39,303 nucleotides of DNA from Verrucomicrobiota bacterium. Lineage in GTDB: Bacteria > Verrucomicrobiota > Verrucomicrobiia > Opitutales > UBA953. Made by a program: the position numbers and the translations under genes. Under the pieces are notes generated by a model, which was given only the letters and a program-made list of their open reading frames with translations, was not told where the DNA came from and searched no databases. The DNA lies in contig JAPLTU010000071.1 of assembly GCA_026397965.1 (NCBI GenBank), forward strand, positions 1-39,303, read 5' to 3'. Positions 15,561-35,137 of the stretch are shown here, piece after piece (the stretch's first letter is position 1; every line of letters begins with the position of its first letter).

Positions 15561-16601
15561 TTAGACGGCGGGGGCGAGAATGACTTTCATCACGCCAGGC
15601 GCACCGGCATGCAGTTTTTCGAACCAAGCGGCACCCTCGGACAGAGGGACGACGGCCGAGATGATCTTATCGACCTTGATCTGACCCGAGGCGAGCAACT
15701 CGATGCAGCGCGGGATTTCGCCGGCCGAGGCGCAGGATCCTTGGAGACGCAGCTGTCGAGTCACGACGATCTGCAGAGGCAGTTCCGTCTTCGGCGTAAG
15801 ATTGCCAACGAGCGTCACCGTACCGCCTTTGCGCACGGCGTTGATCGCGGAGAGCACGGTGGCATTGAGACCGACGCATTCGAAGGCCGCATCCGCGCCC
15901 TGACCCTTGGTCAGCGATTTAACGAACTCGGTGAGATCTCCTCCGGTCTTGGGATTGAAGCTGTGGGTGGCGCCGAGTTCCTGGGCGACGGCCAAACGCG
16001 AGTCTTCCGTATCGACCGCGATGACCTGCGCGAAGCCCGCGATTTTGGCAGCCTGTAACGTCAGCAAACCAATCATCCCCGTGCCGACGACGATGGCGGT
16101 ATCCCCTGGAGCACACGGCGTAAGGCGAACGGCATGAACGCCCACCGAGACGGCTTCGATCATCGCCGCTTCGTTAAACCCGAGATTTGCTGGGAGCTTA
16201 TGCAGGATGCGCGCTGGCACCGTGACGAATTCGGCGAAGGCTCCATGGCGACGATAATCGCCGCAAGAAACGCCGAGTACCTGACGGTTATCGCAAAGAT
16301 TGACGTCGCCGCGCTGACAATGGACGCATTCGCCGCAGAACACCGTCGAATCGAAAGTCACGCGATCACCAAGCGCGAAGCCCTTCACTTGAACGCCGAC
16401 GCCCGTGATGACGCCCGCGGCTTCATGGCCCATCACCAGGGGGGGGATACGGCGTCCGGTGGAACCGTCGAACCCGTGGATATCAGAGCCGCAGATGCCA
16501 CAGGCACGGACTTGAATCAAAACATCCTCGGGCCCGCAAAGCGGATTGGGCACGTCCACATAGGACATCTTTTTGTATTCGGTCAGCAGGAGGGCTTTCA
16601 C
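15561..16601 (-). CDS. Zinc-dependent medium-chain alcohol/sorbitol-type dehydrogenase
   Basis: Starting at GTG 16601, the product has 346 residues and begins MKALLLTEYKK, a typical MDR start. Catalytic zinc ligands are Cys37 (ACGICGSD) and His59-Glu60 (MGHEAAG). The structural zinc lobe is Cys89, Cys92, Cys95 and Cys103. A GTGMIG Rossmann motif binds NAD(P). The family includes L-idonate 5-dehydrogenase, threonine dehydrogenase and galactitol-1-phosphate dehydrogenase. Next to an SDR and a GntP permease, an idonate-type sugar-acid oxidation is the best guess. The reading frame extends 44 codons further upstream to 16733, but that part translates REP repeat DNA, so I reject it. It is the first gene of the three-gene minus-strand operon. 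Confidence 0.87.
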   Translation of the reverse strand: MKALLLTEYKKMSYVDVPNPLCGPEDVLIQVRACGICGSDIHGFDGSTGRRIPPLVMGHEAAGVITGVGVQVKGFALGDRVTFDSTVFCGECVHCQRGDVNLCDNRQVLGVSCGDYRRHGAFAEFVTVPARILHKLPANLGFNEAAMIEAVSVGVHAVRLTPCAPGDTAIVVGTGMIGLLTLQAAKIAGFAQVIAVDTEDSRLAVAQELGATHSFNPKTGGDLTEFVKSLTKGQGADAAFECVGLNATVLSAINAVRKGGTVTLVGNLTPKTELPLQIVVTRQLRLQGSCASAGEIPRCIELLASGQIKVDKIISAVVPLSEGAAWFEKLHAGAPGVMKVILAPAV

Positions 16602-16641: not shown

Positions 16642-16697
16642 GGTAGGGTTGAGCGCCCTCGCTCAACCGCGGCTGACCAAGGGTGGTCAGCCCTACC
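16642..16697. repeat. REPIN: two REP hairpins in inverted orientation
   Basis: The plus copy (16642-16668) has head GGTAGGG and stem GTTGAGCG/CGCTCAAC with loop CCCT. Two bases later a minus copy (16671-16697) has stem GCTGACCA/TGGTCAGC and ends in CCCTACC. The pair lies just upstream of the zinc dehydrogenase start. Confidence 0.8.
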
Positions 16698-16708
16698 TAG
16701 GTGCATCG

Positions 16709-17157
16709 GGTAGGGTTGACCACCCTTGGTCAACCGTCGGAACTCCCTGGGTATTCGACCGAATCGAAGTTTACCTCGAAACCCAGTTAAATGCCGCCGA
16801 TGGAAAACCTACCGCAAAGAAAGCATCTACCTCACTCACTTCCGCAGTGGGAAATTAAACCTATACAGTATGACAGTAATGCCGGACCATCTTCACCTGA
16901 TTGCTCGATGGAATCACGGACTAAGCCTTGGAAGAACAATCCAGTCATTCAAGGGCATCATTGCCAAACGACATGCCATTGAATGGCAGCAAGGCTTTTT
17001 CGACCACCGAATTCGGTCCTCCGGCGAACTTCGCGCCAAAACCGCCTATGTCCGGGCCAACCCGATAAGGGCCGGGCTTGTGAAAACAGAAGCTGATTGG
17101 CCCTTTGCTTACCTTTGTGGCGATGACAACGGCTGACCAAGGGTGGTCAGCCCTACC
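16709..17157 (+). mobile_element. RAYT unit: transposase gene bounded by inverted REPs
   Basis: The left boundary is a plus REP at 16709-16735 (head GGTAGGG, stem GTTGACCA/TGGTCAAC, loop CCCT). The right boundary is a minus REP at 17131-17157 of the same subtype (stem GCTGACCA/TGGTCAGC, ending CCCTACC). The 449-bp unit has the same outward geometry as the shorter non-coding REP pairs elsewhere in the window, with the transposase gene in place of the spacer. No target-site duplication was identified. Confidence 0.65.
16726..17136 (+). CDS. REP-associated tyrosine (Y1, IS200-like) transposase, short form
   Basis: The 136-residue product contains the HUH motif in VMPDHLHLI (His55 and His57), then SFKGIIAKRH, the family block WQQGFFDHRIRS, and YVRANPIRAGLV with a probable nucleophile Tyr108. 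These are hallmarks of TnpA_REP/RAYT single-strand transposases, which recognise GTAG-headed REP hairpins. The usual first beta strand before the HUH motif is not recognisable, so the N-terminus is shorter or remodelled relative to typical RAYTs of about 150-200 residues. The only upstream start is TTG 16726, inside the left REP; the next is ATG 16870 in YSMTVM, too late to keep the fold. The stop (17134-17136) is inside the right REP. It may be a domesticated or partly decayed enzyme. Confidence 0.7.
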   Translation: MVNRRNSLGIRPNRSLPRNPVKCRRWKTYRKESIYLTHFRSGKLNLYSMTVMPDHLHLIARWNHGLSLGRTIQSFKGIIAKRHAIEWQQGFFDHRIRSSGELRAKTAYVRANPIRAGLVKTEADWPFAYLCGDDNG

Positions 17158-17232: not shown

Positions 17233-18201
17233 TCAGAATCCCGCGCCTTTGACCTTTGTCTGAATGGTCAGCAGGTTTTTGTTCGAAGTGATGAAAAGCG
17301 TGTGGCCATCAGCTCCCCAGGCGAGGTTGGCCGTTGGCTGACCAGTCATAATCGTGCCGAGGTGCTTACCTTCCGGAGATAAGATCAGGACGCCCCCAGG
17401 ACCTGTCGCCCAAATATTTCCTTTTTCGTCGAGCTTCAATCCGTCGCAATTTCCCGGACGATTAGCACCCTTCAAGGACGAGGCCTTAAAAATGTCGCGC
17501 AAATGAGCACCATTGAGATCACAAGCCGCAATCCGAGTGTCATTCGGATCGGAAATAGCGATATAAAGGGTCTGCTGATCGAGGCTCAACGCGATGCCAT
17601 TAGGCCACTTAACCTCCTTGGAGACCAAGGAAACCGAGCCATCAGGCGATAGTTTAAAAATACCGTGGAAGTCTAGTTCAGCGGTTTCATCGCCCAAGCC
17701 ATAGGGCGGGTCGGTAAAATAAATCGCTCCGTCTTTGGCGACGCACAAGTCATTCGGGCTATTAAAACGACTCCCTTCGAAATTGGTGGCGAGTTTCTTA
17801 AATTTCTTGTCGGGCAAAAGTTGTGCCACGCAGCGATCACCGTGCTGGCAGAGCAACAAGTTGCCTTTAAGGTCGACCGCCAAGCCGTTCGAGCCCTGCC
17901 GGCCGGATGGTTCCGAGGTGCCGCTGGGCTTCAGAAAAACTTCTTCCCCCTGGGCTCCTGGACGCCAAGCGAAAGCGGTGTTATTAGGAACGTCCGAAAA
18001 GATGAGTTTATTTTGAAACCATACGGGCCCTTCCGACCAGGTAAAACCCGTGGCCAAGACTTCCACCTTGGCGTCAGCGGCGATCAGTTCATCCATCGCG
18101 GGCTTTACCGTCCGGTCGATGGCGAAGCGATGGGCAACCTTGGGCTGATCAGCCGCGGACAGAGAAAAAGATAAGCATGCAAGAAGCAGGGCGGCCTTCA
18201 T
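17233..18201 (-). CDS. Secreted SMP-30/gluconolactonase/LRE family beta-propeller
   Basis: The 322-residue product has a signal peptide (MKAALLLACLSFSLSAAD). It then carries the SMP-30 blocks TWSEGPVW (metal-binding Glu), SRFNSPNDL (Asn), TDPPYGL, WPNGIA and NCDGLKLDEKGNIWA (Asp) before a C-terminal NLAWGADGHTLFIT. These fit a six-bladed propeller with a Glu/Asn/Asp metal site that hydrolyses sugar lactones to acids. The signal peptide places it in the periplasm or outside. It is on the same strand as, and upstream of, the dehydrogenase/SDR/GntP operon, separated by the RAYT unit. A pathway of lactone opening outside, then uptake and redox steps inside, is therefore plausible. Its own promoter must lie in 18202-18406, shared with the divergent DUF6807 gene. 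Confidence 0.87.
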   Translation of the reverse strand: MKAALLLACLSFSLSAADQPKVAHRFAIDRTVKPAMDELIAADAKVEVLATGFTWSEGPVWFQNKLIFSDVPNNTAFAWRPGAQGEEVFLKPSGTSEPSGRQGSNGLAVDLKGNLLLCQHGDRCVAQLLPDKKFKKLATNFEGSRFNSPNDLCVAKDGAIYFTDPPYGLGDETAELDFHGIFKLSPDGSVSLVSKEVKWPNGIALSLDQQTLYIAISDPNDTRIAACDLNGAHLRDIFKASSLKGANRPGNCDGLKLDEKGNIWATGPGGVLILSPEGKHLGTIMTGQPTANLAWGADGHTLFITSNKNLLTIQTKVKGAGF

Positions 18202-34990: not shown

Positions 34991-35017
34991 GGTAGGGTTG
35001 AGCGCCCTCGCTCAACC
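34991..35017 (+). repeat. Single REP, GTTGAGCG subtype
   Basis: The head GGTAGGG is followed by stem GTTGAGCG/CGCTCAAC with loop CCCT, 8 bases after the ABC-F stop. Confidence 0.8.
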
Positions 35018-35032
35018 GTGCTCTCGGCATCG

Positions 35033-35101
35033 GGTAGGGTGGGCTCTCCGAGCCCGCCCTCACGAGAAGCTCTTCGAACGACTCGGAGAGTCGTCCCTAC
35101 C
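35033..35101. repeat. REPIN, GGCTC-TCC-GAGCC subtype
   Basis: The plus REP (35033-35058) has stem GGGCTC/GAGCCC and loop TCC. The minus REP (35079-35101) has stem CGACTC/GAGTCG with the same loop and ends CCCTACC. The two stems differ but the fold and loop are kept. Confidence 0.75.
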
Positions 35102-35110
35102 TCGAGACAC

Positions 35111-35137
35111 GGCTGACCAAGGGTGGTCAGCCCTACC
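35111..35137 (-). repeat. Single REP, GCTGACCA subtype
   Basis: The minus-orientation copy has stem GCTGACCA/TGGTCAGC and ends CCCTACC. With the preceding REPs it fills almost the whole gap before the DUF3500 gene. Confidence 0.8.

Follow-up and report, generated by a model that had tools for sequence, protein, structure and literature searches.

A RAYT Gene between Two Inverted REPs

Does a transposase gene that is exactly enclosed by two inverted REPs form a mobile unit with them, able to generate short REP pairs (REPINs) by itself, or does it stay in place among the repeats that resemble its borders? This question is raised by a unit of 449 bp in the window, i.e., the whole stretch of 39,303 bases analyzed here, which makes up bases 1-39303 of a contig that is 112,517 bases long. 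The contig belongs to a 2.18 Mb MAG, 96% complete (G000), of a freshwater bacterium from the Opitutae (Verrucomicrobiota). A preliminary description had seen in this unit a minimal self-contained REPIN source. Our analysis indicates that it is very probably a REPtron in decay, namely a gene for a RAYT (REP-associated tyrosine transposase, TnpA-REP), a "domesticated" transposase of a known kind, between inverted GTAG-class REPs, at a fixed and vertically inherited site, that was inactivated by a 122-bp deletion. The features of the locus are listed in Table 1.

Table 1. Features of the RAYT locus (window coordinates).
Feature	Position	Strand	Remarks
Zinc-type alcohol/sorbitol dehydrogenase-like gene	15561..16600	-	Name read off the sequence; fixed left-hand anchor of the locus
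56-bp REPIN	16642..16697		TTGAGCG-type REP 16642-16669 (+) abutting CTGACCA-type REP 16670-16697 (-); heads outward; dispersed form of the repeat family
5' REP of the RAYT gene	16709..16736	+	Stem TTGACCA...TGGTCAA; RAYT-specific, one copy per genome
Remnant of the true RAYT 5' end	16791..16851	+	MPPMENLPQRKHLPHSLPQW; ATG 16791 or 16800; frame differs from that of the remaining gene; identical to G028 up to the junction
Deletion junction	16849..16851	+	GGG microhomology, common to both edges; 122 bp missing
Remaining RAYT coding sequence	16852..17136	+	HLH 16888-16896; Tyr codon about 17047-17049; ends DDNG-stop
3' REP	17130..17157	-	CTGACCA stem; common dispersed subtype
TGA stop codon	17134..17136	+	Supplied by the 3' REP (cggcTGAcc); likewise in 5/5 intact orthologues
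SMP-30/gluconolactonase-like gene	17233..18201	-	Neighbor; name read off the sequence

The sequence between the REPs encodes a Y1/HUH RAYT: it is recognized by Pfam PF01797 (Y1_Tnp; E 1.2e-5, 25.9 bits for a cut-off of 23), its coding part matches PDB 4er8 (TnpA-REP) with an E-value of 1e-7, and both the HUH motif (HLH) and the catalytic tyrosine expected of a RAYT are present. With NCBIfam NF047646 (REP_Tyr_transpos), whose cut-off is 80 bits, the window ORF scores below the limit (71.1) and the intact orthologue of genome G028 above it (86.1). We keep the locus and its orthologues in this family, with the copy in the window as a broken member. An AF2 model of the intact protein also has 4er8 as its best PDB match; as this low-confidence model was built from three sequences (mean pLDDT 57.6), we used it as an outline only, to place strand beta-1 and helix alpha-A. 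The protein is also weakly matched by NCBIfam TIGR00976 (CocE/NonD hydrolase; E 4e-5 to 2e-4, below the cut-off of that model), likely by chance or through a flaw of the model.

The bracketing of the gene by inverted REPs, as first described, is borne out: the arms (16709-16737 and 17129-17157) are 29 nt each and 93% complementary, with GGTAGGG heads pointing outward, and each forms a 9-bp hairpin 3' of its head (z -4.1 and -4.8) that no shuffled sequence folds as well. Homologous RAYTs are likewise flanked, with REPs on both sides in 41 of 67 loci. The 5' REP is found once in each of six RAYT-bearing genomes, always at the RAYT, and in none of the other 49 genomes; its stem is two compensated base pairs away from the dispersed TTGAGCG...CGCTCAA stem. 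This private REP, which does not disperse, might have a self-regulatory role or be protected, an idea that we consider rather doubtful.

Intact Orthologues Reveal a 122-bp Deletion

The search for orthologues covered 95 related genomes. Five genomes of the same genus (G028, G024, G003, G007, and G040), all uncultured Opitutae MAGs and the nearest named relatives holding the RAYT gene, carry a close orthologue at the same locus, 79-96% identical to the C-terminal part of the window ORF. All five are open over 151-155 codons from an ATG that follows the 5' REP after about 55 nt; the intact protein of G028 reads MPPMENLPQRKHLPHSLPQWV...FFVT...PDHLHL...TAYVRANP...DDNG-stop. The match to G028 is split, residues 1-43 of the window ORF matching about 105 bases upstream of the rest, and the alignment gives the reason: behind position 16851, a segment of exactly 122 bp (codons 21-61) that all five orthologues have is missing from the window. 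Once these 122 bp are removed from G028, its sequence is that of the window with 1 mismatch over the whole gene (99.7% identity). Since 122 cannot be divided evenly by three, the N-terminus (ATG 16791/16800) and the HUH/Tyr part now lie in different frames, and the frame opened by the true N-terminus stops at 16982.

It is this deletion that makes TTG 16726 look like a start. The preliminary description had taken it for the only one; there are, in fact, in-frame ATGs at 16870 and 16879, and the true start lies in the other frame, cut off by the deletion. We rejected TTG 16726, whose frame is used by no orthologue, as well as a programmed frameshift, the 122-bp segment being simply absent here and present in other genomes. 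The earlier interpretation fails because of these intact orthologues, which are invisible from the sequence of the window alone.

One may ask whether the shortened gene still yields a functional or regulatory protein, either by reinitiation at ATG 16870 or 16879 or from TTG 16726. The HLH and tyrosine motifs and the C-terminus are intact in one open frame, and reinitiation at ATG 16870 could give an HUH/Tyr fragment of about 88 aa; against this, the deletion removes two elements of the HUH fold, beta-1 (codons 27-35) and alpha-A (codons 44-59), as placed on the AF2 model, and the N-terminus in the TTG frame is out-of-frame sequence, the first 37 or so residues of which match none of the orthologous proteins. 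We, thus, find such a product very improbable, and we infer that the window copy is non-functional because beta-1 and alpha-A are lost and the frame is broken. Among the intact copies, dN/dS is 0.07-0.30 at dS values of 0.1-2.5: these copies are under purifying selection.

The main weakness of the decay reading is its reliance on a single MAG assembly for the deletion. In a MAG, such a gap is conceivable in principle as an artefact of the assembly or of a minority allele, in which case the population would carry an intact RAYT; the species does have a single assembly, and the rest of the gene, at 99.7% identity with G028, presents no further decay. However, assembly collapse normally requires repeats near the k-mer length, and the tract shared by the two edges is only 3 nt long; moreover, the junction lies inside a 112-kb contig. 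We, therefore, regard an artefact as quite unlikely and retain a genuine deletion.

The RAYT allele of G024 (L037/L066) is a mosaic, with a 5' half 65-73% identical to G000 and G028, a 3' end at about 97%, and flanks mostly at 90-98%, a pattern indicative of recombination within the gene.

A Fixed Gene among Dispersed REPINs

The dehydrogenase gene stands beside the RAYT in all six RAYT-bearing genomes (6/6), and the whole REP-RAYT-REP unit is present as one copy in G000, where further copies had been looked for following the preliminary description. Across the six genomes, we found neither multiple copies nor shifted locations of the unit, as an IS would produce: there is one copy and one neighbor, which is the single-copy, vertically inherited locus of a REPtron. 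The intact gene is conserved and does not move. A recent transposition of the unit was rejected, its neighbor being identical everywhere. In other genomes of the genus, the RAYT gene is absent from this site. The site is occupied in G014 by a 56-bp REPIN instead (C37 near 77288-77343, L083), and REPs of other families lie near it in G036 and G033.

What is dispersed is a different pair. The common form consists of GGTAGGGTTGAGCGCCCTCGCTCAACCG abutting CGGCTGACCAAGGGTGGTCAGCCCTACC, i.e., TTGAGCG...CGCTCAA and CTGACCA REPs, and, when folded, forms two hairpins, with the paired heads closing the structure (z -7.1). The REPIN that lies next to the unit in the window has exact copies elsewhere in G000 and in relatives; within 3 mismatches, there are 13 copies in G000, 8 of them identical to the master, and 30 in G028. 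With 8/13 identical copies, the G000 population has yet to decay, which fits a recent loss of the RAYT. The dispersed pairs that we listed abut without RAYT sequence inside, except for a few that other REPs split.

These data bear directly on the first proposal, in which the 449-bp unit would be a minimal transposon that is still active and from which the non-coding REP pairs derive by internal deletion. The unit does have inverted REPs with outward heads as in IS, and its 3' REP (CTGACCA) is common to the dispersed pairs. Yet its gene is frameshifted, it is found as one copy at one locus across six genomes, its 5' REP is never dispersed (the TTGACCA REP is seen only at the RAYT), and the dispersed pairs use TTGAGCG...CGCTCAA as the partner REP, abutting, with no RAYT sequence in between. 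A self-contained source of this kind is hardly credible, and the REPtron in decay is retained.

The dispersed cognate REPs expected of a REPtron are, thus, found for the 3' REP only, the 5' variant being unique. REPs of the 3' subtype occupy 23 sites in G000, compared with 0 for a reversed-pattern control, and 8-40 sites in the six RAYT genomes vs. a median of 1 in the 49 others (Mann-Whitney p 1.4e-4, phylogeny uncorrected). A first REP pattern, GGTAGGGNNGNNCNNNCNNGNNNNCC, had been discarded, as it missed the subtype and caught other REP families. Many REPs of the 3' subtype are also present in three genomes in which no orthologue was found, G014 (28 sites), G009 (19), and G015 (17); these assemblies are 83-86% complete, and the contigs of G009 and G015 end at or inside the neighboring dehydrogenase gene. 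Those RAYTs of other subfamilies in the genus that are accompanied by REPs have different stems in them and the same GGTAGGG head. REP and RAYT belong together, and the possibility that the REPs are tied to another transposase finds no echo here, the subtype being enriched where this RAYT occurs.

The scan for all REP types was run on the surroundings of known REPs in G000, about 261 kb in all, and its counts for other families are, hence, lower bounds. Two further observations concern the repeats themselves. At 34991-35137 of the window, a TTGAGCG...CTGACCA REPIN is interrupted by one that belongs to another family (stems TGGGCTC and GACGACTC), with about 14 nt plus 8 nt of extra flank; this nested repeat looks like a past insertion of a REPIN into a REPIN. 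Around 104 distinct 5' flanks of REPs in G000, across REP families, have a weak leader, TGC(C/A)T(T/C)(G/A) or TGTCTCGA, before the GGTAGGG head, with information at positions -7 to -1; to judge from these flanks, the leader may mark the cleavage site.

The Stop Codon Supplied by the 3' REP

The placement of the stop codon inside the REP, already pointed out in the preliminary description, is correct and is kept in all five intact orthologues. Among the 67 RAYT loci, 46 have a GGTAGGG-type REP at most 300 bp downstream; in 30 of these 46, the stop falls within the REP or immediately adjoins it, and in 34 it overlaps the REP or lies within 1 nt of it. Clustering at 60% identity gives 20 clusters with a 3' REP, 10 of which show the stop-in-REP layout. 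Three registers occur: the TGA of the stem, the TAG of the head, or the TAG of the foot.

G000 has a second RAYT (C66:9628-9891, L010), open and about 40% identical to the first (38-42%). It is flanked on both sides by GGCAGCACC-type REPs, of which the 3' one has a single mismatch in its head, and its TAG stop lies within that 3' REP. A separate 325-aa protein with a Y1_Tnp domain and a long C-terminal extension is encoded at C64:1075-1356 (L012), with no flanking REPs in the stretch read.

This kind of arrangement is already known, since REPs overlapping the 3' end of RAYT genes ("REPtrons") have been described, as have REP termini giving TAG stops to neighboring ORFs (PMC3733652); ours may be the first count of how regularly it occurs in this lineage. 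One could propose that a stop supplied by the 3' REP is, in this Opitutae lineage, an architecture due to selection and not to accident, which several RAYT subfamilies reach in different ways, an idea that we put forward tentatively and consider rather doubtful. If true, the last codons would be tied to the hairpin that the encoded protein recognizes, for example so that the gene and its cognate REP would be kept together, or the end of translation would be coupled to hairpin recognition.

Proposed Mechanism and Comparison with Known Systems

We propose that the intact protein, like published RAYTs, would bind REP hairpins in single-stranded DNA, with the GTAG head and the stem-loop as points of contact, that its HUH/Tyr site would cut next to the hairpin, and that it would copy or move REPINs around the genome while its own gene stays put. 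In G000, the gene was inactivated by the loss of 122 bp between GGG repeats. Hairpin cutting and REPIN copying have been published for other RAYTs (PMC8266576, PMC3116915), and it is by analogy with these that we infer them for the intact form.

As found, the locus matters little: it adds one decayed Opitutae REPtron and corrects a tempting misreading. Nevertheless, it has two useful by-products. Two related genomes that share the 56-bp REPIN have almost the same RAYT locus, intact in one and recently broken in the other, and they form a natural test of whether REPIN populations require their RAYT in order to persist. In addition, many RAYT/REP pairs in which the stop-in-REP layout is regular are available in the genus.

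For Opitutus terrae, REPs are already on record (PMC3733652), and RAYT genes are described as always flanked by inverted REPs, with no IS-like mobility (Nunvar et al. 2010, PMC2817692). Our locus resembles published REPtrons (PMC2817692, PMC3733652, PMC8266576) in its HUH motif and single tyrosine, its relationship to NF047646 and 4er8, its two inverted REPs with outward GTAG heads, its cognate REPs dispersed as pairs, its single copy at a fixed site, and a 3' REP overlapping or abutting the end of the gene; it departs from them by the frameshift and deletion that make the window copy a pseudogene, by its GGTAGGG head, and by its 5' REP, a private variant absent among the dispersed repeats. 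RAYTs pseudogenized by frameshifts or deletions are known in Pseudomonas and Stenotrophomonas (PMC3686654), where, as here, RAYTs are syntenic, the abundance of cognate REPs (REP orthogroups) is tied to the presence of the RAYT, and the repeats persist despite the broken gene; our case comes from another phylum, and comparison with a near-identical intact orthologue places its deletion junction with single-base precision. With IS200/IS605 elements (IS608, ISDra2), the locus shares the HUH Y1 fold; unlike them, the unit has neither multiple copies nor changes of location, its ends are inverted REPs with outward heads, and its best family and structure matches are REP-associated transposases, not IS transposases. 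The window RAYT is a now-broken member of the known RAYT/REPtron class, an ordinary system in decay rather than a self-contained mobile unit.
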